Shown here: piece after piece, positions 32,880-56,154 of the stretch
Position numbering within the stretch: the first letter of the stretch is position 1
Layout of the letters: every line of letters begins with the position of its first letter
Source: Cafeteria roenbergensis
Lineage: Eukaryota; Sar; Bigyra; Bicosoecida; Cafeteriaceae
DNA length: 64,000 nucleotides
NCBI GenBank assembly: GCA_008330645.1
Contig: VLTN01000058.1
Coordinates: 124,001-188,000, forward strand
Reading direction: 5' to 3'
Translations under genes and position numbers: made by a program
Notes under the pieces: generated by a model
The model's input: the letters and a program-made list of their open reading frames with translations, nothing else
Databases searched by the model: none
Told to the model about the DNA's origin: nothing

Positions 32880-34275
32880 CTATGCTCTGGCCCGCTTTGG
32901 AGCACGGGTGGGGCCCTGCTCGACAGCCGCAGCCTGCGCAGCACGCGCCCCTGCCAGCGCAGCAAACGACGCCACCGGGTCGGCGCGGCGGGGTGGTGCA
33001 AGCGCGGCCCCCGCCCCCAGGCCCCTGAGGCCGCCGAACGAGCTGAGAGCGCTGCCCGGCTGCTCCCCCCGTGCAGCCACCACGAGGGCGGACCTCGAGT
33101 CACACCAGCTGGCTGGCAGCACGACGCTGCCGCCTGCTCCACGGACCGCAGGGCGGGCGCGAGGCGCGTGCATTTCGAACTTGGGCCCGGTTGTTCCGTG
33201 GCCTGCCAGTGACGGACCGGCGTCGGCTCTGCCAGAGCCTTCGCTCAGTGCCGCGTGGCGGTCGAACATTGAGCCAGCGAGCGTCCGCCTCCGACCGGCG
33301 TCGCGCCCCGGACCGCCCGCAGCTTCGTCGGCGGGCGTGCTGACGAGTGCCTCGCCGCTCGCCGCCCTGTCCGCGCCTATGCGCACCAGCTCCTGCCAGA
33401 GCGACCCGTGAGCGCTGGACGAGAAGCGAAACCGCCCCGCAGCGGCAAGCAGCGCCGCCCACGCATCGGCCGACCGCCTGCTCGAAACCCCAAAGTCCAC
33501 GAGCGCGGCATGCGCTGCTGTGGCAGCTTCGGCAGCCTGCCGCAGCAAGGGGGGGCGCAGCATCGGTGCAGTTATCAGGTCCAGCAGCTCCCGGCCGTGC
33601 TCCGAAAACCGCCGCTGCGCGGCTTCCCAGCCCTGCCAGTCGCTCTCAGCGTCACGCGCCTCGCGCAGCGCGAGCGAGGCGTCGCCTGGCACAGACGCGG
33701 CTCGAGCCCCTACCGCGGCTCCGGAGCTGCTGCTCGTGGCCTGGCCGGACGCCGGCCCAGCGCCGCCCGCCTTGCGGGCCGACTTGTGCTGCTTCCGCAC
33801 GTTCTGCTTGCGCGCCCGCCCCGCTGCGCCCTTGCGCTTCACGGGGGTGCCCGCGCTGCCCGCGGCCTGGCGCCGCTGGCTGGTCCCGTCGTCGCCGTCG
33901 CCATCGTCATCCTCCTCCTCCTCGTCATCATCTTCGTCATCCTCGTCCTCATCATCGTCCTCGTCGTCTTCGTCGTCCTCGTCGTCCTCGTCGAAGGGGT
34001 TGGAGCTTGGCCTCCCGCCACGACGGTGTCGGCCTGCTGCCCACTTTGCTGGGGCGCGCTCTGACATCTGCTCCGCGTCCTCGCCTTCGAGCCGGGCCGC
34101 CCTGGCCACAGCCTCGCGAGACGCAATGGCGGCCTTGCGGCGGGGCCGACGGCCAGGCCTGGCGCCTGGCACTTCCAGCGCAGGAACCGCTATACGATTG
34201 CTCTTGGAAGGCGGAGCGGCGACCAAGCCAACCTCGGCCGCACCGTTGCCCCCAGGGCCACTGCCAGCGCTTGCA

Positions 34276-34308
<33 letters not shown>

Positions 34309-34416
34309 TCGGATTCGCAAAGCCGTCTGCGCCTCCCCGGATCCGCCGCATCGTCAGCCTCCTCCTCGAAGCCACCCGCCGTATCCTTGAGCCCAGCTTC
34401 GCTCGGTGAGCCAGCC

Positions 34417-34448
<32 letters not shown>

Positions 34449-34457
34449 GCCGCCGCC

Positions 34458-34488
<31 letters not shown>

Positions 34489-35970
34489 GTGGCTGTGGTC
34501 TTGTCGTCTCTCTTCTTCCTGGCAGAGGGAGACTGTCTGCCAGCAGGCGAAGGCGCCAGCTGCTTGGAAGCTTTGGATCGACCCGCCTTGGGCGGAGCAG
34601 GAGCCTTGGACCGGTCGGCCCCGATCCGAACCCTCACCCATTCTGCATCCGCGTCCTCATCGTCATCCGTGCCCCTGCCGACACAGTCATCGCTGTCGCT
34701 GCTGCCGCCTTCGGCACTGGCGGGATCCGCGCGGGACGGCCTCGTCGGGCCGGAGGACTTTGGTTGCAAGCTGGGCTCCGCACCGGCGCGGCGTGCGCGC
34801 TTCGCCCCACGGCGAGGCGCCGCATCGCCCCGCACTGGCCCGGTTTCGTCGGCCAGCAGACACGGCGGCCGGCACCAGGCGCCCGCCGCCGCCTGCGCTG
34901 GCTCCGTGGAAGGCGCGGTGCTCGCCGGCGTCCAGCCCAGTCCCAGGCCGGCCAGCGGCGGTCGAGCCAGCCCCCCCGCGGCCACCGCTCGAGTCGCGCG
35001 CTCAAGCTTGCAGGGCATCGGGACCACGTCGCCGCCCGGCGCTGCAACGAGCACAAGCTCGCTTCCGTCACGGGGCAGCACGTGGCGCCCGGCTGCCCCG
35101 GACAGCGCTGCTGCAAGGGTGGCAACGGGCGCATGGGGGCTTGCGCATGCAGCAGCAGCATCGCAAGGCGCGCCGGCGGGGCCGTTGATGGGCCAGCCAG
35201 TGGAAGGAGGCGTCCGGGCGAAGGCAGAGAGTGCCGACGACACACAGCGTGCGCGCCAGCCGGCAACCGCAGTGGGGGCAGCGAACCGCCCCGCCTCGTC
35301 AAGGCAAGACATAGCCCCGGCAGAGGCAGCAAATGCGCGAGAAGTGGCCGGCCGAGCGACTCCGTGGACCGACACACCGTACTGCCGGAACGAGTCGCCA
35401 GCCACCGCGGCGAGCACAGCCGTTCCCGGACCCCGGGCACTGACCGCCGATCCGCCCAGGGGGCAGCCGCCGCAGGCAGCCACGATGCGGCGCATGGCCT
35501 CAGTGAGGTCGGTGTGATCGGCCAGCGGCCGGACAAGCGCGCTTGCCACGAGGGCTGGGGGCAGCGGCCACACCCGAGGGGAGAGCATGTCGGCAGCGAA
35601 GGCAGGTTTGGCAGGAGGGCCGGCCTCCGGCCCGGGGGGGCTCTGCCGCTGTTGATTGGAGGCCTCCTTGCCCCCCTCTCGCGCGGACGCGGCGGGGCCT
35701 GCTGCGCTGCCCGCAGTCGCGGCGGAGCGCTCACGCGTGCTCACGATGTACGCAGGCGTGACCCTGGTCGGTGTGTCGGCGGGCAGACCGGCACGGCTTT
35801 GCGACCCCGCGGTCGACGAGTCACGGGTGGGTAGGGCCTGTCCCCCGCTCCCGTGCGGGCTGTGAGGCGGGGCAGGGGCGGCGCTCGCTACTACCCCGGC
35901 CCCAGCCAGTTCACCGGACGAGGCAGAGACTGACGGCAGGGCCAGCGGCCGCGGCCCCGCGCCGCCACCA

Positions 35971-36022
<52 letters not shown>

Positions 36023-37781
36023 TGCTGCTGCTGCTGCTGCTGTCTGGGCTGGCGCTCGCTCCGCCCCCCTCCCCAGCCTCCCTGCCGCTGGGTGCCTCGG
36101 AGCGGCTCGGTCCCGCTTCGATCGCCCCGGGGGGCTGCGCTGCCGACACCGGCTCTGCTCCGGGAGGCGGTGACCCCATCCTGATTCGCACAATGAGGCC
36201 GCAGGGCGCCACTGGGCTGGAAGACGCGCCGCGCCGGAGGGGCAGGACGATGCGTTGCGTTCGACGCTTAGTCGCCGCCGCTGCGGCGGCCAGGTGGCCG
36301 TTGAGGGTGTCAAAGTGCCAGAGGCAGCGTAGCGAGCCGTCCGCCAGCCGGGCCACTGACACGTCCTGCGGCGCGGAGCTGAGCCCAGCGCGACGGCGCA
36401 GCCCCAGCACTGCGCAGGCAGCTGAGGCGTGGCCGCGGACGCCCTCGCGCTCCACGCGGCGCGCGACGACCAGCCCAGCCGCGGCCGGGGCGGCTGCCTC
36501 AGGGTTGACGAGGCACGCAGGTCGCGCTTCTCGGGCCAGCGGCAGGGCGGCGAACGGGGCGTCTGGGTCCAGCGTCGAGGACGGCTCCATCTCCGTGGAG
36601 CCCGACACCCACAGGCGCAGGCGCGGCAGGAGGAGGGCCATGTACTGGGCCGCCGGCGGGGACGAAGAGGCGTCCTCGGGCGACGAGGGCGTCAGCACCA
36701 GCGGCAGCGCTGAGAGCAGACTGTCGGTGGCAGCCGCCGCCTGAGCGATGTGGCTGAGGGCGCCCTCGACAGAGCCGGCGGCCGCAACAGCCGGCAGGGG
36801 CACACTCGCGCCACCGTCGCGGGCCGGCACCGGACCCACCAAGTACGGGGTGGAGGGGTCGCCCAGCGGCCGCGCCTCCCGCCGGCCCAGCGTTGCGACG
36901 GCCTCGGACGCGGCGACGGCCCCCCGCGCCGCCGCATCGAGGCTCAGCGGCGAGAGGGTGAGCGGGGTCGCTGCCGAGGACCGCACCGCCGGGCCGACGT
37001 ACGCCCACGGGGCTAGCATCGCCATCAGGTCCTGAGCGGCGAGCTCCAGGAGGTGGCGCGGGACCCCCCACAGCGCCACTCCGCCCACTGCGCCTGAGAG
37101 GGGGCGCCTGGCGCCCACGAGCCGCAAAGGGGACTCGACCACGTCGTGGTTGGGCCCTGCAAAGCCCACGTGCGGGTGGGTCCCGAGCGAGGTGACGTCA
37201 GCGCTGGCATCGGGCGCCTCCGCCACCAGCACGTGCAGCGAGGCGCGGGCCACGATGGAGCCTGCCGCCCCACAGTCAACGCCCTCGAGCGTGGCACAGC
37301 CCGGGTCAATGTCTCCAGCTGCCACCACGGCTATGACGCGCTTGCGCCTTGGGGACGCGGCCCAAGCATCCAGCGTCTCGGCTGTGATTGGGCTGGCCGG
37401 GAGCTCGGCCCACGCCCCCTCCCCCCGCCGCCAGTCGTGCACGGCTTGCCCCCGCTCGGCCAAAGAAGCGCCGCTGCTCGGGCTGAGTGGGGTGGCCGAA
37501 ATTGGCGCAGGTGACTCCGCGACTGCACTGCTGCTGCTGCTGCTGCTGCTGCTGCTTCCGCCGCTGCTGCTTCCCCCACAGCCCGCAAGCGCAGCCTCCT
37601 CCACGATGACAGGGTGCGTTTGCGACTCTGGCGCAAGCATCCAGCCGAGCCTTAGAGCGCGGAGCGCCGCAGCTCGCGCGCATGCCGCGAGCGGCGGAAC
37701 CGGGTGCTCGCCGTCCTCTTCCTCGTCCCGCGGCTGCCACAGGGGCGAAATGACAAACGTCACCGACGTGCTGCCCGCCAT
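32880..37781 (-). CDS. Large low-complexity protein, probably nuclear, unrecognised
   Basis: A single exon of 1,633 residues from ATG 37781 (MAGSTSVTFVISPLWQP). Open frame extends 59 codons further upstream but is Arg-rich and weak. Ordered-looking stretches include ALRALRLGWMLAP, RVIAVVAAGDIDPG, ALWGVPRHLLELAAQDLMAM, SLRCLWHFDTLNGHL and, near the C-terminus, WQGWEAAQRRFSEHGRELL. Between them are poly-Ser and poly-Gly runs (two Ser-Gly composite blocks), an Asp/Glu block (about 33892-34002) and several basic clusters (KRKGAAGRARKQ, KRARRAG, terminal PKRARA). The last could be nuclear localisation signals next to acidic patches, as in chromatin-associated proteins. I recognise no domain and assign no function. 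Confidence 0.7.
33892..34002 (-). repeat. Acidic low-complexity block (Asp/Glu)
   Basis: Imperfect tcgtcc/tcatcc repeats on the plus strand encode an almost uninterrupted run of Asp and Glu on the minus strand, directly before basic KRKGAAGRARKQ-type sequence. Confidence 0.85.
34415..34488 (-). repeat. Composite (CCG)n(CTG)n repeat encoding poly-Ser/poly-Gly, copy 1
   Basis: Plus-strand CCG units pass directly into CTG units. On the coding strand this gives Ser then Gly homopolymer runs. Confidence 0.9.
35961..36042 (-). repeat. Composite (CCG)n(CTG)n repeat encoding poly-Ser/poly-Gly, copy 2
   Basis: Same composite order as the block about 1.5 kb away in the same gene, giving Ser-run then Gly-run. 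Flanking sequences differ, so it is not a simple segmental duplication. Confidence 0.9.
37526..37556 (-). repeat. CTG trinucleotide repeat encoding poly-Ser
   Basis: About ten ctg units on the plus strand (agc on the coding strand) near the N-terminus of the large unrecognised protein. Confidence 0.88.
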
Positions 37782-38063
37782 CTCGCCGTCCTGGGCCGCC
37801 CGCTCGCCCCCGGCAGCGCGGCCAGCCCGGCAGAATGGCGGGCACCGCCGGCCCCATGGCCGCGGCAGAGCCCTGCGATCGGCGACGGCTCTGTGGCTGT
37901 GACGGCTCGCACTCCTTCCCCATCCGGAGGAGTCCCGCGGCGACCAGCGCGCCTCCACGCGGCGCGTCCCCGCGCCCAGCCGGCGGGCGGTGCCCTCTAA
38001 GTGACGGGTGACTGGCGCCTGCGCCTCGCCGAAGCCGAACCTTGCGCGGCGAGGCTGCCGGAC
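37782..38063. promoter_or_regulatory. Putative divergent promoter (large nuclear-like gene / candidate snoRNA host)
   Basis: The 282 bp upstream of the minus-strand ATG at 37781 and of the first exon proposed for the plus-strand host locus. The bidirectional role is inferred from the repeated divergent arrangement elsewhere in the window. Confidence 0.3.
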
Positions 38064-38131
38064 ATGGATCAGGGGACCGAAAGTGTGAGACTGCGCCAGT
38101 GCCCTGGCACCATTGGCCTTCCCCAGCTAGC

Positions 38132-38223
38132 GCATGAGCAGTGATGGCTTAATCTTTGAGAACCAAGCTTCGCCCCTCCGGGGGCTTGAGGCGCTGCGGA
38201 CAATTTCTTTGCTGAGCTCATGC
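38132..38223 (+). ncRNA. Candidate C/D-box snoRNA
   Basis: A perfect 8-bp terminal stem, GCATGAGC (38132-38139) and GCTCATGC (38216-38223), brackets a C-box-like GTGATGG two bases inside the 5' stem strand and a D-box CTGA (38212-38215) directly before the 3' strand. Inside, CCCC-tccg-GGGG forms a hairpin closed by a UNCG-type loop. The 92-nt length and box geometry are those of C/D snoRNAs, which guide 2'-O-methylation. The C box differs from RTGATGA at the last base. The sequence upstream of box D (gctgcggacaatttctttg) would be the guide; I could not match it to an rRNA site. Confidence 0.45.
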
Positions 38224-38299
38224 CCTGCTGGCTGCGCGGTCCCCAAGTCCGCCCCCTCCCCGACTCCCGCCACGCCCCGGCCGCTTGGCTTCGGGCGGG

Positions 38300-38420
38300 C
38301 GCTGGTAGCGCCCCGGGCCTGTGACGATTATACTGTTGCTGAAATCGGTATTGGCCAGGCCAGTCCTTACAGACGGCCTTAGCCAGCTGACGATTAACAC
38401 TTTGCCGACGGCCCGGCAAG
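38300..38420 (+). ncRNA. Second structured element in the same candidate intron
   Basis: An AT-richer patch contains GGGCGC-tggta-GCGCCC, a GGCC...GGCC hairpin around agtccttacagac, and TTGCCG-acggcc-CGGCAA. TGACGATTA occurs twice (about 38331 and 38388), each next to a CTGA or TGTGA. This could be another C/D or H/ACA small RNA, but no complete box set is present. Confidence 0.25.
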
Positions 38421-38686
38421 CACCCTTGCGCTGGTCCAGCCGCCGGCCTTGAAGCCTCAGCGCGCTGCCACCCCTGTTTGCTGCCTGTTGACTTGCGCTT
38501 TCCCCGTCCCCGCAGCGCGTCTTGGACCGTCTCGTTCTTCTGGCCACCGTGTGATTTCCACACGGCCACGACACAACGCTGTGCTGCACTCTCACTCAAC
38601 CAACAATGCACGCGCGCCGCCGCGTGCGCACTCGCTACTCGAAACGCGATTGGGCACGAAAGCGGACACACAAACACGCCGACAGC

Positions 38687-41600
38687 TCACGCGTTGCGCC
38701 GGTCCGATGCAGTGCTCGAGTCGAACGGCTTCCCTGTCTCCGGGTGGAAAGGTGGCGGCCCGCTGGCCTGCCGCTCCCACCACACCCACGACCGAGCGAG
38801 GTCCGTCATCTCCCACTCCCCGTCTGCGTAAAGCACCCTGTAGCGCCCTGAAGACGGGTCGAACCCGGTCACGGTCCCGCGGAACCAGCTGGCTTCGCCC
38901 TCCCAGTAGACCCACACCACTGCCCGCTGCGTCGCAGGGCACTGTGCCGCCAGACAGGACGGGCACAGCCACGGCTTGTGCCACAGCCCCTGGTCGTCCA
39001 CCACGCCCTTGAGGAACTCCGGCCGCCGTCCGGCGACGTCGACGGGGTGCTCCTCGCCGGGCACGGCCGCCGTCCGCAAGCCGGGGCGCTCCCCGCCTCG
39101 CTTGGCGATGGGAACAGTACTCTCCGCGGCCTCTTCCGCCGCCTTGTATGGTCCGTAGGCGTGCGGGAGGGGGCGCGGCATCTCGGGCTCAAGCCTCCGA
39201 TTCGCGTGCACTGTGTCGCACCCGAAGCAGCGGCAGTCGAACAGCCCGACCACGGCAGCGTCCGAGGGAGCGCCACGCGCCCGGTCAGCAAGCTCTGGCG
39301 CAGCGGGCCCCACGGCCGAGCGGCTGCCGACTGGGCCGCCCCGCCGAGAGCCTCCTCGGGACCGCGTGCTGCTCGTCGAGGGCCCGCCGGAGGCGGCAGA
39401 TGCCGCGGACCCTCCCGAGCTGGACACCTTTGCCGCCTCTGCCGCTCGCCCCAGCGCCCTGCTGATGACCAGGGCGTCGTGCCAGACGCTCGAGCCCTTG
39501 GCGAAGAAGGCCCGCGCGTTGCGCAGCATCGACTGCATGTCGGACACGCACTCGTCGACGGACTCGTAGAGCTGCCGCTGCACGCGGCGCCGCACCTCGT
39601 CCAAGCAGAGCGGCACCGGAGTCTGCTCCAGGAAGGGAGTCCCCATCGGCGGGAGGGACGCGAACGTCGCGCTGGGGTCAGGGATGGTGGCGGCTGCCTG
39701 CGCGGTGGTGGCAGCGCTTCCTCCCTCCGCCTGAGCCTTGCCGAACGCCGCCACCTCGATGTACGGGCGCGCTGGCAGGTACCCTCCACGGTGGAGGAAG
39801 GCCTCGTCGATGGACGTGGACATGGCCGCGAGCCTGCCCACGGAGCGCGCCTCCCGCACAGCCTCGAACACGGCGCTGAGGCGGGCGTCCAGCTGCAGGC
39901 GGGCGGCGGAGTTGTCCAGCCGGATCGGGCAGGTGGGGTCAGACACGTCCTCGATCACAGGCGGGCACAACGGCTTTCCGTTTCCGGCCGCCAGCGAGGC
40001 CAGCTCGTGGCGGGCGACGCCGCGCTCGGCCACGAACCCGTCGCTGGGGAAACGATGCCGCGATGCAAAGAAACCGGCCCCCGCGGCGGCCTCCACCGCC
40101 ACCTCCAGGGGGTCCCGTGAGTCCATGGCGGCGGGCCCGCACATCTCGGCGAAGAGGGGGGCTGGCGTGAAGGTCGGGAAGGATACGGAGTCGGCCCCGT
40201 GCGGGGCAAGCGCGGGCCAGTGAAGGGATGGAGGGCGCCTGCCGGCCGTGGATGCGGCGAGCAGAGCCTCAGCACCCGCCGCGCGAGCGTGGCCGTCGCC
40301 GGCGGAAGCCGCGCTTGCAGCAGAAGCAGCCGCGGCTCGCGCCGCGCGGGCCCGATGCGCGTGAGACGTGCGCAGCGACAGCTCCTTGAACACCACTCCG
40401 AGTGCGTCGTCGGCCCGCCGGGCGAAGCGGGAGGAGGAGGGGGCTGGCGGCAGGAGCACGGCCGGTGCCATCCAGGGCGGAAAACCCAGCAATTCAGGGG
40501 CGCCCGACCCTCGTGCCGGCGCGCCCCGGGGCACTGCAGCGGCATGCGGTCCGGACACGGAGGGCGCAGCGGAGGACGAGGGTGTCCCCATGGCGAGGGG
40601 GGCGAGTCGGGAGGAGTGAGCGCCAGTCGAAGGGCGCGGCGTCGCCAGCTGCTGCGTCAGCTCTGCCCGGGCCGGCGCGCGACCGGGCTGCCCCTGGTGG
40701 CCAGGGAAGGAGCCGCGCGCCTGCCCATGCTGGGCGTAAGAGGACGGCGGAAAGGCCATGGGACTGGAGCTCCCTGGGCGAGCAACCACGCCCGGCACGC
40801 CGAGGCTGGCGCTGCTGCGGCCGCTGCTCGGGTTGCTCAGCAAAGCAGGGTCGGGCCCTGGCGAAGCCGGGAAGAGCCCCCCAGCAGACCTTGCCGGGGC
40901 AGCGGCAGGCGAGGACCCGGGCCACGGGAGGGCGGAGGCATCAAGCGCCCCGCCCATGGGCGGGTCGGCGCCGTCGCCCGGGCGGGGGCGCTTCGGCGCC
41001 GAGGGGCGAGGTTTGTGCGAGAGCATGCTCAACGTCACGCCGCTGGCTGGCCGCTGCGCCGGGACCAGCGAGCCGGGCCACATGGGCGAGGGGCCGGAGG
41101 ATGACGTCGACGAGGGGGGAAGGCCCTGGCGCCCGCCGTGCTGCGCGGCGGCGCCAGAGAGGCCAGCGCTGTGCGAAGCCATCGCGGGAGGCGCGTCCGG
41201 GGCCGCCATCAGAACGTCCGACCCGTCACTAAACGCCGAGCTGGGACGCGACTCATCGAGAAGCCGCGGTTCCGGCACGGATCCCAGCTGCTGCGCTGGT
41301 GAGAAGCTGTTTGCGGCGTGGCGGGCCGTGCTTCTAGCGCCGGACGCGGCAGCGGCGGCGGCGGCGGCGGCGACCTCTTGCTTGATGACCTGGGCAGCCG
41401 CCTTCTCCGCCGCAGCGACGGTGAACACCGCGGTGCTGAGCCCCACCGGGGCAGCCGCAGCAGCAGAGGCGGCGGCGGAGCCCTTGCCATCTGCCTGCGT
41501 CGCCCCCGCAGCGCGCAGCGCCGCTGCCCGAGCCGACCTCGCCGCTGCGCCCACCAGCTGCCGCGGCCCGCGGGGCACGGTCTTGCCCTTGGCCCTGGCA

Positions 41601-44084
41601 GTGAGGGCAGCTGGCCACGCCGGGTCAGGCCCGCTGGTCTTGCCCGCCCCGTCCGAGGGAGGAGGGCGCGCAACAGTCGCAGGCGTGGCTACCACGTACC
41701 CTGCGCCAGCCGCGCCCCGCGCCATGAGGCGCGCTCGCTTTGCGGTCGGCTGGGCGGGCGTCACACCTTGACCGGGGTCGAGCGCCGCCACCGCCGGAGC
41801 TGCCGCTTGGGGGGCTCGTTCGGCCGGGGCATGCCGCAGCAAGCCCTTGCCGCCCGGGCGCGCAGCCCCGGCCTGACGCGGCGGGACCGGGATCCCGGAG
41901 AGGCCCCGAGAGGGGGCGCTGCACTGAATCCGCGCCAGGAGCGCGTCCATGCTGGGGTTGCGTGCGCGCCGGAGCGCCGCGGCTGGCACCCGCGCCACGC
42001 ACCGGATTTCACCCACAGCCGACGCGTCCCCGGCGTCCAGGCGCTGCCCGAAGAACACCGCGGCGTCTGCAACCAGCGCTTCGCGCTTCAGCGCTTCCCT
42101 CCTGGTGAGGGCGTTGAGCAAGCTCGAGGCCAGGCCCAGCCGATGCCGCACCGTGGCCAGGGCAACCAGCTCGGGGGAGCGCCGGCCTGCCCACCGCAGC
42201 TGCGCCTGGTTCGGCAGGCGGAACCGCCGGCGACTGTCTGCGCTGAAGAGGCCAATCCAGGCCGACCCGCCAGTGGTGGCGCTGCCCGGGGATGCGCCAG
42301 GCGCCGTCCGAGGGCTGGGCGAGTCCCTGCCGCGCTTGCCTCTGTTCCGCCGCGGGTCCTTCGCGTCCGGAGTTGCCAGCGCCGTGTAGCGGGCGCACTC
42401 TGCCTCGGCGTTGAAGCGGCTCAAGGCGCGAGAGAGGTGCCTGTGGCGCAGGCGGAGGGCCCTCTGGAAGCGCGCCGAGCGGCCTCCGGAAGCAACGTCC
42501 CCTCGCCTGGCGGGGCGGCGCGCAACGACCGGCGGGACCTCGCCGTGGGCGGCTGCAATCACCACGTCCACGGACACTCCTCCCGCTCCGAAGACGAAGG
42601 TTTGCAGCGACGCCCCGGACTCGCTTTCGGGTTGCTCTGCCGCGGGGAACGAGGCGATCGCACGCGCCCGTGGGTCTGCAACGGCTCCCGACACCCAGCA
42701 AGCCTGCGGCGCGACTTGCACAAGCGCTTCCCTGCTCAGTCCCCCCGGGGCCGAAATGGTCAGCCCGCCAGAGCGCGATTGCTCTGGGGCGGGAACGCTC
42801 CCCGGCCCGGCACTGGCTTGCAGTTGCGCGCACTCCGCCGCCGCAAGCGTGCCCGCCAGCGCCTCCCGGGCTGCCTTTCCCGGGAGAGCTCGCACGTACC
42901 AGCCGGCGAGCCAGGCGCACATGGGATGCACCGCGAGGCGGGAGCGCTCCACCCTGGAGGCCACGCGGCTGCCGCTGGTCCTGCCGCACACCGCGCACGG
43001 GGCAGCCTCCGAGGCCAGCTCCGACACGGGCCGCAGGCGGTAGCCCATCGGCGGGAACTTGGGCGGCGGGTCGGCGTATGCGGGCACCGCCGGGGCGGAG
43101 GACAGCCAGGCCCTGCTCGACGCCTCGCAGTGCGTCTCCGCCTCGACGGGCCAGGGCTGGCAGGCGGGTTCAGTCGAGGCGGCGTCGCCGTCCTCGTCGT
43201 CGTCGCCGCGCAGTGATGACGCCTTCGGTGGGCGAAACACTGCCGACGCCTGCACTCCCGTGGGGAGGGGGGCGGCCGCGCCTCCCTCCAGCCGGCCGGA
43301 GCCCAGCGACTCGGGGCGCGGGCGGCTCGACGCCGCGAACGGGGGGAGAAGCAGGCCCCTCCTGCGCTCTCGGGTGGCAGAGCGAAGCATGTCGCCAAGC
43401 CGAGCAGCGCTGGCACCCTGCGTGGCGGACGAGCCAGCCGAGAGCGTGAACCGGATGCGGGTCGCGCCCACTGCCCAGGCCCCCGTCTGGCGAAGCAGCA
43501 GGTCGGCATCCCTGTCGGGCGCGCCCCTCGCCACGGTGAGAGTGGCGGGGGTGCGAGACGGCGGGGGCATCGCCACCGGGACTGAGCCGCCGCTGGCCTG
43601 GGAGGCCGAACGCGCAGCCGCAGCGCCAGCCCGCATGGCAGCGTGGCGGGCCCGAGCGGCGTCAATGTCGGCGGCGACTGCGGCCGGCACCACGAAGTCG
43701 ACTCGCAAGGCCGGGGTCGTCCCGCCCGCGGCCTGCCCAGCTCCGGCCTTGGGTCCAACAGACGGTGGGAGGAGCGCGGGGTATCCGGCCGCCAGCGACG
43801 CGGCGGGGTCGAACCGCGGATCGGACACGCGTCGAGGGGACTCCAAGAACGCCGATATGGGGGGATGGGGGTACGGCACGAGGTCCCTGGCCAGACGAGG
43901 GCCCACGCTCGCACTGGGCGACGCGCCGGGCACTGGGGCGGACCGAGACGCGACCAGAGCTGCAGCGAGGGATGCGGCAGACGACTTCGCACTGCCGTCG
44001 GCAGCAGGAGCTGGTGCCGCCGCGCCTGAGTGCGGAGCAGGTGCAGAGCTGGTGCCAGCAGACAAAGCTGATGACGAGGACGAA

Positions 44085-44118
<34 letters not shown>

Positions 44119-47100
44119 GGGACGGGGACGAGAGGTGTGCGGAAAGACCCGAGCTCACGACCGCCGCCGGCTGTGCGGCACTGCTCACTCGTTCCGGTGC
44201 CGAGACCGCCCGGGCCACGGGCGCGTCATGCAGCAGCTTGAGGCGCCCAGGACCAGCCGGACTTGCCTGCCCGTCTGCGCCACCCGCGGCGGCGCTGCCC
44301 TGTCCGAGCATGCGGTTTCGCAGGTAGTCGTCCTCGCTGTCCACCTCGTCGGCGGCTGACGGACCCATCTCCAGCACCTCGCCACCCTCCGGCTTGGCGA
44401 CCACCCGGACGGCGGCCTTGCCGCCCGCGGACATCTTGAGGGAGGCCAGCCCCGGCGCCGGCTCGCGCAGCGCAGCGAGAATCTTTTTGCTCAGGGCGTC
44501 GGCCTTGCCTTCAAGCTCTGCCCGCTCGGCCGCCGCTACGGCACCGAGGAGCCTCCCCAGGCTCGCGGGCCCGCTCTGGCCCTTGCCAAGCCGCAACAGG
44601 GCTCGGAGCTGAGCGTCCGATGCCACAGACGCGAGCGACGCTTCGCGGGCGGACGCGGGGCTGAGGGCCACGCCGCGCATGCGGTGGGCGTCTCCGATCC
44701 AGGTTCCAGGGGTGAGGACGACGCAGAGGACGTGGACCCAGGCGTGGCCCGAGGCTGCCGAGCGGATCAGCGCCCCGCCGCGCACGCCGCAGAGACCGCA
44801 GGCCGCCTGGATCTCCGCCCGGGCGAGGGCTGTGCGGACCGGGCCGGAGAGGTAGGGCGAGAAGGAGGTGCCCCCAGCGGCCTCCTCCAGGCGCCGCATG
44901 CTGCGGCAAGGCTGGCAGAGCCACTCGGACGACGCAAGCTCCTCCGCGGTCACGCCGTAGCAGCGGGCGTGGACGGCAATGTTGCACCTGTCGCAGTAGG
45001 CAATGGGGTCCGCCTCGTCGCTCAGAGCGTCGAAGCAGACCCCGCACAGCCCCTCGTCCTCCGCCGAGGCCGCGGACTCCGCGTCGTCCTCCTTCCCATC
45101 GGAGGCGAGGGCGTCGGCCGCAGGCGCGTCTCCGTGGCACGCCGAGTGGCCGACCGGGGGTGCGGCCCCGTTCGACAGCGCGTGGGGCGGGCGCTTGCCG
45201 GCCACGCCGCGCGACGGGGCGGCCTTGCTGTCCCGGGGCAGGGCAGGCAACGGGCCGCCTGCCACTGCCATGGCCAGCAAGCCCTTGGCTGAATCGGGCA
45301 TTGGGGGCGCTGGCGGTTCGTTTCCGCTCCCAGGCTTGTGTCGCCCTGCCGTGGGAACAACCCAGGACGGCGGAAGGGGCTTGTGCTTGGGCTTGTGAAA
45401 GCCCAGCGCGCGGTCCCGCAAGCCGCGGCGCAGAGCCGACCTGATCCGCCGGCCGGCCTCGCCCCGGGCGTACTCAGCCTCCACCAGCGCCTCCCACGCC
45501 CTGTCGCGAATTGTGCTCCGGCGGAACCCGTCCTCGTCTCGCGGCGCCTCCTCGACGACACCACACCCGCAGGTAGCAGCCACTGCCAGGCTGCCGGGCG
45601 CCGCCGCAGCCTCGGCCGCGCGCCGTGCCATCAGGCTGACGTCACTGGCCCGCTCGGGCAACGCGCCGTCCGACGCAGTCCAGTCGTCCGCCACAGGCCA
45701 GCTGGTGCTGTCGGCGGCGTACACCCACTCCTTCGAAGCCTCCACCTTGGCCAGCAGCCCCGACACGAGCGACTCCGTCTGACGCTCGCGCTCCCTGAGC
45801 CGGGCCTGCGCCGCGGCCAGCTCCAGCCGGACCGACTGCTCGTCCTGGCAGAGCTCTCCAGCCCGGGCCAGCCACGGCAGTTCCCCTCTCAGGGAGGGGT
45901 GGTGCATGTCCGTTGCCATGGCTCCCTCGGGCGGCTCGCCGTCCTCCAGCGGCGGGTCTCCGTTCGGAGGCCGCCCGGCCACGCAGCCCGTGACCGCAAC
46001 GGCAACGTCCTGCTCCCCGTCGAGCGGCTGCCACGCCAGTGCCGCCCCGGTCGCCTCGTCCACGTCCACGAGAGCCTTGCGGCCACGCCGCTGGATCAGC
46101 ACGCGGAGGGAGCCCGGCGCCGGCCCGGCAGAGCCGGCCTTCACCGCGGCCGGGTCTGCGTAGGCGAGCGGCAGGCGCCTGGCGGCCCCACAGTGCGCGG
46201 CCAGGCTGTCCACGTCCCCTGCGTGGGCGGGGCGCGTCCCCTCCGGCGCGTCTCCGGCCTGCCCAAACTCCGCCCTGCTTGCGAAGCGCTCCATGGCCTG
46301 CTGCAGCCTCGCGCTTCGGCCTGTGAGACCGCGGGGGCTCTCCGGCGGCGGCGTGCTCGGCCGGCGCAGCAAGGCGCCGTCGCCGCCTCCCGCGGGCGTC
46401 GCCTCGGTCTCCGCCACGAAGGCTGCCTTGAGCGCCAGCGGCAGGCAGCTTCCGTCGTCGGCCTGGGACCGCACGTCCCGCGTGCACCACCAGTTGTCTG
46501 CGTCGTCCTCCTCGGCCCAGTCGCCGTCAGTCACGAAACCGAAGGGGGCTGCGCAGGCCGCTGTGGCCGACGCGCTGAGACCCCTGCGTTCGTGCTCTCC
46601 GCGCGACGAGCCGGCCTCGTCCGGCGACGCTTGGAACAGTCTCCTTCGCTTCGCCTCCAGGGCGGCCCCCAGTCCAGCAGCTCCCGAAGCAGGCAGTGGG
46701 GCGCCGGTCCTGGCGTCGTCGGCCGCAGCAGCTCCCACGGCGCGGGCGTGCGGGGCCGCCGAAGCTTCGGCGGAGCTGCCGCTATGAGAGGCCCTCCCTC
46801 CAGTGGCCGGCGCTGAGCGCGACGCGGACCACGGCGAGCCGGCGGCCGCGAGAGCCACCGACGGCTGGCCCCGGCGAGCCGTCTCGCCGCCCATCCGGCA
46901 GACGTCGCTCAGCACCGGAGCTCCGACACCTGCGGCCTCGAGCATGGCGGCGCTGCCAAGCGCTTCCTCCGGCTCCCACGCCCGGGTGAACCGGTTGCCA
47001 GTCCCAGTCATCCAGAAGGGCAGCGCCTTGCGCGACCCCGCCGTGGAGTTCCCGGGCCACGGGACCGACGCCGCGGAGGTGGCGCTCTGGCGAAGCTCGG

Positions 47101-50025
47101 CCTGGCCGCTGGCTTCCCGGAGCGGAGGGCCGCACGCCGCCGCGGGGAGTGACGGCGGCACTGCCTGGCGAGGCGGGGGCGCGATCGGCTCCCCGCAGGC
47201 CAGCGCTCGCCCCTGGATCCAGAGGAGCGGCTGCATCGCGGCCTTGGTCACGGGGCGCATGTGTGGCTCCACAATGCGCTGCCAGAAGCGGCGCTGCTCC
47301 TCCGCGCCCTCGTCCTCGGGCTCCTCGGCAGCGCCCTCAAGCTGGGCCGCCTCCGTGGCCGCGTCGTCCGCGTCGAGCCGGTCCAAGAAGCTGCCTGCCT
47401 CGCTGTCCGCAGCGCCAACGCTCGACTGGCGCCTTGATGCGCCCCGGCTGCGGCGACGGTCCCGCGTCTCGCTGGCTGCCACGCTGCCCAACGGCGTCGG
47501 TGGCTCGAGCACGCTGTCTTGTCCAGCGGATTTGCGCCGGCCTCGCCTGGCTGCCGTGTGCTTCTGGCTCCGCTTGCCGGCCTTGCGGCCCCGGCTGCGG
47601 CGCCGCCTGGGCCCGAAAGCGCTGTCGTCCGAGTCTTCGCCAGCCCCTTCGGCAGCCACCGCCTCGTCCAGCGCACGAGCGGCGCCCGCTGCCTCGTCGT
47701 CATCGGAGCTGCGCTCGCCGGCCTCGGACTCCGCCACGGTGCGCAGGGCCGATGCGCCGCTTGCGCCACGGGCGCTGCTGGCTGGCCTGGCGCGCACGTC
47801 CAGCGCCCAGTCGCCGAGCGTGTCCTCGACGGGCCCGGCGTCGACGCTCAGCGCCTCGCGAACGACACGGGCGGCGTCGAGGAGACCTGGCGGGGCAATG
47901 GAACACGCTAGGTCCGCGTCTGCCTCGGCGGCGTTGCCCCCGATGCTGCCGCTGCCCGCTGGCCCGCTTCCGCAGCGCCCCGACTCCGTCGGCGAGCCGA
48001 TGAGGCCGGCGATGTCTGGCTCCTCCGCGAAGGGGGCAGGCAGTACGCGGAGCGCTGGGTCCTCTGCCGCCCAAATGTACTGCATCCGCGATGCGACCGG
48101 GTCACGAGTGACCGAGGCCACCAGCTCCGCAAATGGGTTGCCTCCGTTCTGCGCGCGCCGGGACGACTGGGAAGAGGTGGTTGGCGTTGAGTCCCCCCCG
48201 GATCCCGCCGCGGGCTCGCGCAGCGGAGCCCACAGGCGCTCGAGGATGGGGGCGGGGTGCGGTTTGGGCTTGGGCTCCGCAGCGAACCGTGCCATGGAGG
48301 TCGCTCGAGAGGACGCCACAGACGCGGCATCGCCGGCAGCCTTTGACCCGGCCCGCGAGTGCTTGCGGCCCTTCTTGCCGGACTTCTTGCCTCCCCGAGG
48401 GCGGGGCGTTGACCCGCCCCTGCCGCCCGAGTTGCCCCCCCGCCCTGGGGTGCTGCGGCTGCGGTCCCGCTTGCCGCTGCGGCTCCGCCCGGATGCCCTG
48501 CTGTGCCGCGAAAGCGGGTGAGACTCCCCATCCAACGGGGAGCCGGACATGGCCTCGGTCACCCTCGCACTGGCGCGTGCCTCGGTGCGCCGCCCGGCGG
48601 CGGCGTGCTGGGGACAAAACGTTGCGAACTCGAGGGCGGAACCCCCGCCGCGCCCAGGGAGCACGGTTCGGAATACTTGGGGACTCGACACGGCGCAGGA
48701 TGGGTGGGCGGACCAGGTGCACTTGCCGTGGTAGCACTGGGCGCACGCGCCGCCGGGCGGCAACTCGCAAATCGAGCAGCCAAGCGAGCGGCGCTCCTGG
48801 GGCACAGCTGGCACACCGATGATGACCTCCGCCTTTGTGGAAACGCCGGACGGATCGAGCTCGGTCACAGACGTTTCTGGGATGTACAGCGCGCAGTTGA
48901 CGTGGGCCCAGCCGCCTTCGAGAACCCGCTTCATGCAGCCTCCAGAGCGAAGGCAGATTGCGCAGTTGAGGCTTGCAGGCTGCAGCCCAGCGGCGCAGGT
49001 GTCGCAAAACCACTCGGACTCTGCGGGCGGGAGCGGGTCGAGGTTGATACAATGCTGATGCATGCCCAGGTTGCACCTGTCGCAGAGCACGATTCGGTTT
49101 TCCTCCGACTGCGGTTGACCGGGTCCGCAAAAACGGCAGCACAAGAGAAGAGCATTGCGAGGTGATTGGGCTTGGGCTGCCTGCGGAAGCAACCGTGCCG
49201 GCGCGACGCCGACGGAGCCCGGCCCGTGCGGAGTTGCAGTCAGCCGGCCGCCGCGACTTTCCCGCCACACTCCGTGCCTGCAGGGCTCGAGACCCCCGAA
49301 CGGCTGCTGCCGGCAGCAAGAGCAGGAATCGAGCGCGCTGCAATGCGCCAATCCGCTCCGGAACCCAACCGCTCTTTGCAGGGCGCCATCCTGCTCCGCC
49401 CCGCCGCGCTTCCCCCACGGCGCCGCCAAGCTGCCTGAGATGAGGGTCGGCTTGCGGGCACGTCGCGTTGCGCGCGCGCGCTGTGGCACTCACCCAAGTC
49501 CCATCCCCGCAAACAACGCAGCCATCGTCGTCGTCACCGCTGTCCGTGGCATCGCCTTGAGGCTCCGGCTGCGAGGTGGGCAAAGCGCGAGGGGAGCAAA
49601 GCGGGACAAGACTGGCCTCAGAGCGACCCTCGCCAGCAGGGAACGGGCAGCTCCAGCCGGCACACGCGCGCGTCCACGGACTCCGCCGGAGTCGCTCTGG
49701 TATCTAAACGAGATGCGCAGGGGAGTTCACGCGGCGGGCCGTCCGGGCCGCAGCAGCGTGTCGATCTGCCTCGGCCCAGCAAGCGGCGAGCTCTGGCGCG
49801 AGAAATCAGCCAACCGGGAGCCCAACCGCCGCGGGCTCCGCCTTGCAACTACGCGAGTGTCACTCTTCTCGCTGGTAAGCGCGGGGCGCGGGAGCGAAAG
49901 CACCTGTGGGCCAGCTGGCGGGGCTTGGCTTGCCAAGACGTGGTTGGCAAGCTTGCGGGGCAAAGGCTCACCTCCGCCGCCTCCTTGACCTCCCCAGCGT
50001 GGGGGTCCTGCTCCGGTGGGTCCAT
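38687..50025 (-). CDS. Giant chromatin reader: PHD/extended-PHD modules, bromodomain-like, Tudor-like
   Basis: Exons 50025-49972, 49568-49494 and 49108-38687 give about 3,516 residues; the last exon is 10.4 kb. Exon 1 (MDPPEQDPHAGEVKEAAE) is the least certain. Exon 2 ends in CVVCGDGTW and exon 3 opens with SEENRIVLCDRCNLGMHQHC, so splicing completes a PHD finger (Cys35/38/52/55, His60, Cys63). An extended PHD follows (CAICLRSGGCMKR, WAHVNCALYIPE, CSICELPPGGACAQC, SAHPSCA; ~90-205). A second PHD at ~1395-1445 (CGVCFDAL, YCDRCNIAVHARCYG, WLCQPC) with its own extended half, and a third zinc-binding pair near 2080 (CAVCGRTSG, HPMCAWLAGW), come later. A bromodomain-like helix bundle (~3200-3270, QLYESVDECVSDMQSMLRNA) and a Tudor-like barrel (~3435-3490, VVWVYWEGEASWFRGTVTGF) end the chain. 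PHD-ePHD plus bromodomain recalls BRPF proteins; histone binding is inferred. Confidence 0.85.
44061..44130 (-). repeat. GACGAG/GAAGAC hexamer repeat encoding poly-Ser in the PHD gene
   Basis: Tandem gacgag units on the plus strand, ending in gacggg variants, read as Ser codons on the minus strand. Same unit type as the tract in the LRR gene. Confidence 0.85.
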
Positions 50026-53452: not shown

Positions 53453-56154
53453 TCATGCGCGGCCCTTGCGCTCGCGGATGCACTCCACCACCTTGAGCGC
53501 CGCCTGCGTGATGCGGGTGCCGGGGCCGAAGATGGCCTTGGCGCCGGCCTCGTAAAGGAAGTCGTAGTCACGGGGCGGGATGACGCCCCCGCAGACGACG
53601 ATGACGTCCTCGGCGTCCTCGGCCTTGAGCGCTGCCACCAGCTGCGGCACCAGGGTCTTGTGGCCTGCGGCCTGGCTGCTCACGCCAACCACGTGCACGT
53701 CCGCGTCCACGGCCTCGCGAGCCACCTCCTCGGGGGTCTGGAACAGCGGCCCGACGTCCACGTCGAAGCCCATGTCGGCAAAGCCGGAGGCGATCACCTT
53801 GGCGCCGCGGTCGTGGCCGTCCTGGCCCATCTTGGCCACCATGATGCGGGGGCGGCGGCCCTCTTCCTCCACGAACGCGTCGACCACGCGCTGCACGTGG
53901 TTGAGCTCGTCGTCGCCGTCGGCGTTGTACTCCTGCTTGTACGCGCCCTGCACCACGTCGGTGCGAGGGGTGTGCCGGCCCCACACGGACTCGAGGGCGT
54001 CGCTGATCTCGCCCAGGGTGCAGCGGGCGCGGGCGGCGTCGATGGCCAGCTTCATGAGGTTCTGCGGGTGCGACCCGGAGCCGGTCGACTCGGTCAACGC
54101 GGCGCTCTCCGCAAGGGCCGCAAGGGCGGCCTTGGCCGCGGCATCGTCACGGGACGCCTTGATGGCGCGAAGGCGGTCGACCTGCTTGGTGCGCACCGAA
54201 GTGTTGTCGATCGACAGGACGTCGACGCCCTCCTCCTTCTCGAGGCGATACTTGTTAACCCCGACGATGACATCGGCGCTCGCGTCGATGCGGGCCTGCT
54301 TGCGGGCGGCAGCCTCCTCGATGCGGAGCTTGGGCATGCCGCTCTCGATGGCCTTGGCCATGCCGCCGAGCTCCTCGACCTCGTCGATGAGGGCGCGTGC
54401 CGAGTCCACGAGCTCCTTCGTGAGCGACTCCATCATGTACGAGCCGCCCCACGGGTCGACCACCTTGGTGATGCCAGTCTCCTCCTGGAGCACGAGCTGG
54501 GTGTTGCGGGCGATGCGCGCGGAGAACTCGGTGGGGAGGCCGAGCGCCTCGTCGAACGAGTTGGTGTGCAGGGACTGGGTTCCGCCCATGACCGCCGCCA
54601 TGCCCTCCACGGCAGTGCGCACCACGTTGTTGTAGGGGTCCTGCTCCGTGAGGCTCCATCCCGAGGTCTGGCAGTGCGTGCGGAGGAGCCAGCTCTTGGG
54701 GTTGGTGGCCCCCATCCGCTCCTTCATCAGCTCTGCCCAAAGGGTGCGGGCGGCGCGCAGCTTGGCCACCTCCATGTAGAAGTTCATGCCGATGCCGAAG
54801 AAGAAGGAGAGGCGGGGGGCGACGCTGTCCACGCTGAGGCCGGCGGCCTGGGCGCAGCGCGCGTACTCGACGCCGTCGGCGAGCGTGAAGGCGAGCTCGA
54901 GCTTGGCGTCCGCCCCGGCCTCCTGCATGTGGTAGCCGGAGATGGAGATGGAGTTGTACCGCGGCATGTGCTCGGCCGTGTATCCCATGATGTCGCTGAT
55001 GATGCGGAGGGAGGGCTGGGGGGGGTAGATGAAGGTGTTGCGCACCATGAACTCCTTCAGGATGTCGTTCTGGATCGTTCCGGTCAGGAGGGAGGAGTCA
55101 ACGCCCTGCTCCTCGGCGGCCACGACGTACATGGCAAGGATGGGCAGCACGGCGCCGTTCATCGTCATCGAAACGGACATCTTGTCCAGCGGGATGCCGT
55201 CGAAGAGGATCTTCATGTCCTCGACGGTGTCCACCGCCACGCCCGCCATGCCGACGTCGCCGTCCACGCGCGGGTGGTCGGAGTCGTACCCTCGGTGCGT
55301 TGCCAGGTCGAACGCCACGGACAGGCCCTGCTGCCCGGCAGCCACGTTCTTGCGGTAGAAGGCGTTCGACTCCTCCGCGGTGGAGAAACCGGCGTACTGC
55401 CGAATGGTCCACGGCCTGCGGTCGCACAAGCGCTGGCAAGCACGGGCGATTCATGTTGGGAGGGGATGCGCCGCGCAGCGGGGGGGAAGGAGCTTCGCCG
55501 CGCGAACAAGGGCAACATGGGGGGGCGCTCAGTGTGAGCAAAGCCCAATCCCTGCTTTCCGGGCTCACCGGTACGTGTACATGGTGGCACGAGGGCCGCG
55601 GGTGTACGGGTACTCGCCGGGGATCTGGGACGGGGTCGTGCCCTGCGAGGCGGGGTCGGGCGCAGCAACGGAGGGCTCGGGCGGGCGCGTTGGCCGCCTC
55701 GCGAACACTGGCTGCGCGGGGCCACAGACCATCGGCGCCTGGCTCACCTCGACGTCCTCGGCCGTGTACAGCGGCTTGATGCTGATGCCTTCGGGCGTCT
55801 TCCACACGAGGTCCTCAGCCTTGCGCTTGCCGCGAAGCTCCTGCGATGGCATCGGCGGGAGCGCTTGAGCGTGCTGCTTGGCGCGCGGGGAACCGATCGA
55901 CGCTGACGACGCCTCGCCGCCCAGTCGCGGCGTGCGCCTGCCCGCACGCCACGAGCGCGCCTGCAACCGGGGGGAGCAAAGCGCCGCGCCCGCCGAGCGC
56001 TGCGGGCACGCCGGCGCGCCATGGGCCGCGCGGCGAGGCAGCCGATGCCTAGCGCTCTCACCTTCTCGGCAAGCTCAACCCACTGCGCAGGCAGGCCCGC
56101 CATCGCGCGGGTGTGAGCGGGACGCGCGGCACGAGCCACAGCCCGAGCGAGCAT
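53453..56154 (-). CDS. MUT: Methylmalonyl-CoA mutase, mitochondrial, adenosylcobalamin-dependent
   Basis: Exons 56154-56062, 55840-55569 and 55415-53453 give 775 residues, close to the human enzyme (750). Exon 1 is a mitochondrial presequence ([20 protein letters not shown]) plus [11 protein letters not shown]. Exon 2 carries [15 protein letters not shown] and ends [11 protein letters not shown], spliced in phase 2 to [12 protein letters not shown] at the start of exon 3. The substrate TIM barrel follows ([38 protein letters not shown]). The C-terminal B12 domain contains [20 protein letters not shown] with the D-x-H-x-x-G cobalamin-binding motif and [10 protein letters not shown]. It converts (R)-methylmalonyl-CoA to succinyl-CoA in propionate, odd-chain fatty acid and branched amino acid breakdown. 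The organism must therefore obtain or make vitamin B12. No break or missing key residue was seen. Confidence 0.97.

Follow-up and report, generated by a model that had tools for sequence, protein, structure and literature searches.

Our analysis points to a short locus that probably gives rise to a single-intron non-coding transcript, from which a snoR66-like guide for position C38 of the 18S rRNA and a second C/D RNA would both be released. The boxes, the stems, the splice signals, an 18-nt complementarity to the 18S rRNA and the register of that complementarity on C38 are all present in the DNA. The candidate host gene lies on the plus strand, within positions 37782-38686 of the window (the whole stretch of 64,000 nucleotides that was analysed, with a GC content of 71.5%, from a 36.3-Mb assembly made up of 167 contigs), and is flanked by two minus-strand genes:

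32880..37781, minus strand: long ORF with its first in-frame ATG at 37781, oriented divergently to the snoRNA locus
38064..38084, plus strand: last bases of putative exon 1, read from sequence only
38085..38515, plus strand: putative spliceosomal intron of 431 nt, GTGAG...CCGCAG, of the same form as the control intron described below
38516..38686, plus strand: putative exon 2, delimited by the 3′ end of the PHD/bromodomain ORF
38687-49489, minus strand: PHD/bromodomain ORF, 3600 aa in a single frame, convergent with the host

The putative intron and the coding capacity of its host

The original prediction had proposed an intron carrying the splice signature of this genome, and both of its ends are in place, with GTGAG at 38085 and, at 38515, a CAG acceptor preceded by 17 bases of which 14 are pyrimidines. 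The same GTGAG...CAG form is found in a control intron at 55433-55747 (minus strand) of the methylmalonyl-CoA mutase gene (53456-55747, minus strand), whose excision restores the expected N-terminal reading frame of the mutase, as judged by eye; it is the one that was checked among eight candidates given by an intron scan of the window with loosened thresholds. These signals support the reading of 38085..38515 as an intron. Both elements described below are contained in it, on the same strand and with 89 nt between them.

Comparable donor and acceptor pairs around a 285-nt block, defined by a donor at most 50 nt upstream and a CAG with at least 13 pyrimidines out of 17 at most 100 nt downstream, occur at 0.42% of window positions on the plus strand and 0.30% on the minus strand. 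This frequency bears on the main rival explanation for the production of the RNAs, namely an unspliced dicistronic snoRNA unit with its own transcription, in which the splice sites would be incidental. Plants and algae commonly have polycistronic snoRNA clusters in intergenic positions, no coding host exon was found and the locus does sit between two genes. Against such a unit, the two RNAs are closely flanked by a genome-type donor and a pyrimidine-rich acceptor, a configuration present at 0.3-0.4% of positions, and we regard it as unlikely.

If the RNAs are intronic, as we favour, the coding capacity of the host depends on the donor. With the donor at 38085, the ATG at 38064 opens an ORF of 19 codons, seven in exon 1 (38064-38084) and 12 followed by TGA in exon 2 (38516-38554), which is the sole ATG ORF from exon 1 to span the junction; the longer open stretches, of 131 and 189 codons, lack an exon-1 start ATG. 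An overlapping and weaker GT, 2 nt upstream at 38083, would let the same ATG open 171 codons, in a frame lying mostly antisense to a neighbouring gene. We preferred the GTGAG donor since it matches the mutase control intron. With this donor the coding capacity is small and a non-coding host is likely; the alternative donor, with its longer frame, would be compatible with a coding host.

That longer frame, running from an ATG across the junction, could also be taken to mean that the snoRNAs are hosted by an unrecognised protein gene, with the intron in its 5′ UTR or its coding part; hosts of this type are usual in Ostreococcus and animals. In O. tauri, introns of protein-coding genes contain 72 of 131 snoRNAs, and 10 are intergenic (PMC7671301). 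However, from 38687 on the 171-codon ORF is antisense to the domain-bearing PHD gene on the minus strand, and the GTGAG donor leaves only the 19-codon ATG ORF beside stretches that lack an exon-1 ATG. A protein host thus seems quite improbable to us, and on its reading frames the host gene is likely non-coding.

Element 1 and its predicted target

38132..38223, plus strand: element 1, snoR66-like C/D-box RNA
38132-38139 and 38216-38223, plus strand: terminal stem, perfect over 8 bp (GCATGAGC and GCTCATGC)
38141..38147, plus strand: C box GTGATGG, 6/7 to RTGATGA
38144..38161, plus strand: antisense element ATGGCTTAATCTTTGAGA, fully complementary to 18S nt 35-52
38163..38166, plus strand: D′ box position, occupied by a degenerate CCAA, in the register of the D′ CUGA in the Rfam snoR66 alignment
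38167..38193, plus strand: internal hairpin between D′ and C′
38194..38200, plus strand: degenerate C′ box CTGCGGA, aligned to the snoR66 UGAUGA
38212..38215, plus strand: D box CTGA

The predicted C/D-box-like RNA with a perfect 8-bp terminal stem was recovered exactly, at 38132-38223. A strict C/D scan of both strands of the 64 kb (C box of at least 6/7 with TGA fixed, CTGA, stem of at least 8 with G-U allowed) returned this place alone, against 0.03 matches per strand in shuffled sequences (n=30). The fold of element 1 with its flanks (38128-38227) is ordinary, 15 of 200 shuffles being as good (z -1.55), and the element is single-copy in the genome according to a search scoring the best candidates only. 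Its boxes and stem strongly support a box C/D snoRNA.

Within element 1, the 18 nt at 38144-38161 form a perfect complement of 18S nt 35-52. The rRNAs compared with the window were four 18S, one 5.8S and three pieces of 28S, and this is the longest complement that it offers to any of them, the next being 13-14 nt; once these positions were masked, the longest exact complement elsewhere on either strand was 11-14 nt for the same rRNAs. The rRNA targets were those of other eukaryotes, since the 18S of this genome was not retrieved, and came from 14 contigs (L007-L020) representing eukaryotic contamination in bacterial or archaeal assemblies. Rfam recognised eukaryotic rRNA in all eight of these contigs that were scanned. 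Because the contigs had been selected for containing the 18S stretch, its presence in 14/14 is by construction, and the complement at nt 35-52 in each of the four eukaryotic 18S scanned likewise concerns sequences chosen for holding it.

Placing the D′ box at 38163 brings the fifth nucleotide upstream of it opposite 18S C38, and none of 150 shuffled guides did as well in this register against each of three 18S. In Arabidopsis, 18S C38 is methylated and the site is assigned to SnoR66 (PMC8053127, in the part available). We found no report of 18S C38 methylation in algae in a literature search, the accessible parts of PMC8522698 and PMC6461891 being silent on it. Judging from the antisense element and its register, element 1 very probably guides 18S rRNA methylation, with C38 as the predicted site. 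The guide preceding the D box can be aligned manually to 18S nt 1140 (L018, L019) or 1110 (L008), giving 9 Watson-Crick and 2 G-U pairs. No target is claimed for it, since 6-10% of shuffled guides pair equally well, the lowest proportion among seven targets being 3.3% (5.8S, L019).

An RNA-family search had been suggested as a check on the original prediction, and among 4227 Rfam families the best match in 37700-38800 was indeed snoR66 (RF00202), but with 21.2 bits (E 0.16) against a cut-off of 43; gathering cut-offs were reached nowhere in the window. Element 1 has the D′ guide for C38 that characterises snoR66, with CCAA at the place of the D′ CUGA and a score below the gathering threshold. 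Given this score, the CCAA and the degenerate C′ box, we term it snoR66-like rather than a member of RF00202.

The lack of any family at the Rfam cut-off, together with the ordinary fold of element 1 (z -1.55), could suggest that the whole locus is a chance product, its stem merely looking conserved within GC-rich intergenic DNA. This explanation is strongly disfavoured and hardly credible, as it would have to account for a perfect 18S complement that exceeds the next longest by 4 nt and sits in the correct place, between the C and D′ boxes, and in the correct register. Four other snoR66-like guide loci, in viral contigs (L002-L005), were rejected as chance matches: they are without an Rfam match at the cut-off and without the 18S stretch, and their surroundings look unrelated by eye. 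A scan of the viral contigs for 18S gave none.

Element 2, a probable second C/D RNA

38313..38416, plus strand: element 2, probable orphan C/D-box RNA
38313-38319 and 38410-38416, plus strand: GC stem of 7 bp
38321-38327, plus strand: C box GTGACGA, 6/7
38339-38342, plus strand: D′ box CTGA
38387-38393, plus strand: C′ box CTGACGA
38405-38408, plus strand: D box CCGA

A second structured and AT-richer element had also been predicted in the intron, and this description agrees with a GC content of 0.56 at 38300-38399 and with a fold of 38310-38430 that was equalled or bettered by only 2 of 200 shuffles (z -2.36). The boxes are separated by spacers of 11 nt both from C to D′ and from C′ to D, and a hairpin follows D′ and precedes C′. 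The C and D boxes of element 2 each have a pyrimidine changed to C, and these two positions would face each other in the C/D core. When CYGA was accepted as D box, a variant admitted after element 2 had been seen, the scan gave three places: two on the plus strand, which are elements 1 and 2, and a minus-strand one within the mutase gene. Shuffled sequences gave 0.13 per strand. The two half-motifs of element 2 are alike at 15 of 21 positions, as in 1 of 500 shuffles, yet a repeat of this kind is present in 96 of the 615 blocks of the window.

Neither guide of element 2 has a target above shuffles in the foreign rRNAs, which cover the LSU incompletely. The 13 nt at 38343-38355 can form 11 Watson-Crick and 2 G-U pairs with the 3′ region of the 18S, in L018 alone, and they are not a canonical guide because they lie downstream of D′. 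Up to an E value of 10, Rfam matched element 2 with snoR77Y (RF01178) alone, at 18 bits and E 2.9 against a cut-off of 52; the match stops inside the internal hairpin and not in the terminal stem, and we rejected it as weak and of the wrong geometry.

It could therefore be argued that element 1 alone is real and that element 2 is a chance GC-rich fold, an explanation compatible with everything proposed for element 1. The guides that do no better than shuffles, the CCGA at the place of the D box and the frequency of internal repeats in window blocks would all agree with it. Against it stand the two equal 11-nt spacers, the D′-C′ hairpin, the fold of z -2.36 and the place of element 2 among the few matches of the CYGA scan. 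We hold a chance origin of element 2 to be possible but doubtful; on its boxes and geometry, element 2 is probably a C/D RNA.

Proposed production of the two RNAs and comparison with known systems

In the pathway that we infer, plus-strand transcription would start between the two minus-strand genes and yield a short RNA lacking any useful ORF, which would be spliced once. The excised intron would be debranched and trimmed to two C/D RNAs, each shielded by its terminal stem and C/D core. Element 1 would then play the part that snoR66 has in plants: through its D′ guide it would pair with 18S nt 35-52 and direct fibrillarin to 2′-O-methylate C38. Element 2 would be another C/D RNA, whose two guide spacers measure 11 nt each.

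Element 1 shares with the plant snoR66 (RF00202) the C box, the antisense element AAUCUUUGAGA, the D′ register on C38 and the terminal stem. It differs by its 18-nt 18S complement, by the hairpin between D′ and C′ and by its degenerate D′ (CCAA) and C′ boxes, and also in being apparently intronic and located beside a second C/D-like RNA.

Intronic snoRNA clusters were reportedly described in Chlamydomonas reinhardtii by Chen et al. in 2008. In O. tauri, 49 snoRNAs are grouped in 12 clusters, two of them intronic and 10 independent and intergenic, and clusters 3 and 5 also show more than one snoRNA per intron (PMC7671301, in the part available). In contrast to the 72 non-cluster intronic snoRNAs that the same excerpt places in protein-coding genes of O. 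tauri, the putative host described here shows no notable coding capacity. Non-coding snoRNA hosts are known from vertebrates, while few intronic snoRNAs are known in plants (PMC5122169, available section). The vertebrate hosts of the SNHG type, such as GAS5, are, as far as the accessible text describes them, also spliced and without a useful ORF, with a snoRNA in an intron; the present locus differs in having one intron with two RNAs, and no evolutionary relation is claimed.

Since algal intronic C/D clusters and vertebrate non-coding hosts are both documented (PMC7671301, PMC5122169, as available in part), this kind of locus is not new. What could be new is a single-intron non-coding host with a C38 guide in an alga outside the green lineage, together with a new, symmetric orphan C/D RNA, and we give this combination a low probability. 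If it were true, C38 methylation and its guide would be older than land plants, and element 2 would provide a C/D RNA whose two guides share a length of 11 nt and whose C and D boxes both carry C in place of U. Should the host organism be neither a green alga nor a plant, the origin of the snoR66 guide would move back in time. The locus also offers a testable modification site, 18S C38, and a guide for it that the Rfam cut-off missed in a GC-rich eukaryote, and it suggests that intron-based non-coding snoRNA hosts may exist beyond animals.

Flanking signals and neighbouring genes

A simple promoter-word scan of 37601-38140 gave neither a telo box nor TATAAA, and a single TGGGCY word at 37792. 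A tRNA/tmRNA scan of the window gave none. The word TGTAA is the poly-A signal of core green algae. It is absent within 1500 nt downstream of seven of eight ORF ends, the eighth being that of the PHD gene, where it occurs about 318 nt on, and on this result we do not assign the species to the core chlorophytes. The 3′ UTR of the PHD gene may overlap the snoRNA intron in antisense. As a side observation, TGTAA is present in three copies in the 64 kb, all on the minus strand, and one of them (38371) falls within element 2.

PHD fingers and a bromodomain were recognised in the ORF 38687-49489 (minus strand) among the 2999 residues scanned, which correspond to the part 38687-47686. This ORF also has a PTM/DIR17-like Tudor match below the cut-off, and is without an intron despite its great length. 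The ORF at 32880..37781 (minus strand) had no match in the Pfam scan; it includes nine CTG triplets in a row, at 37528-37554.
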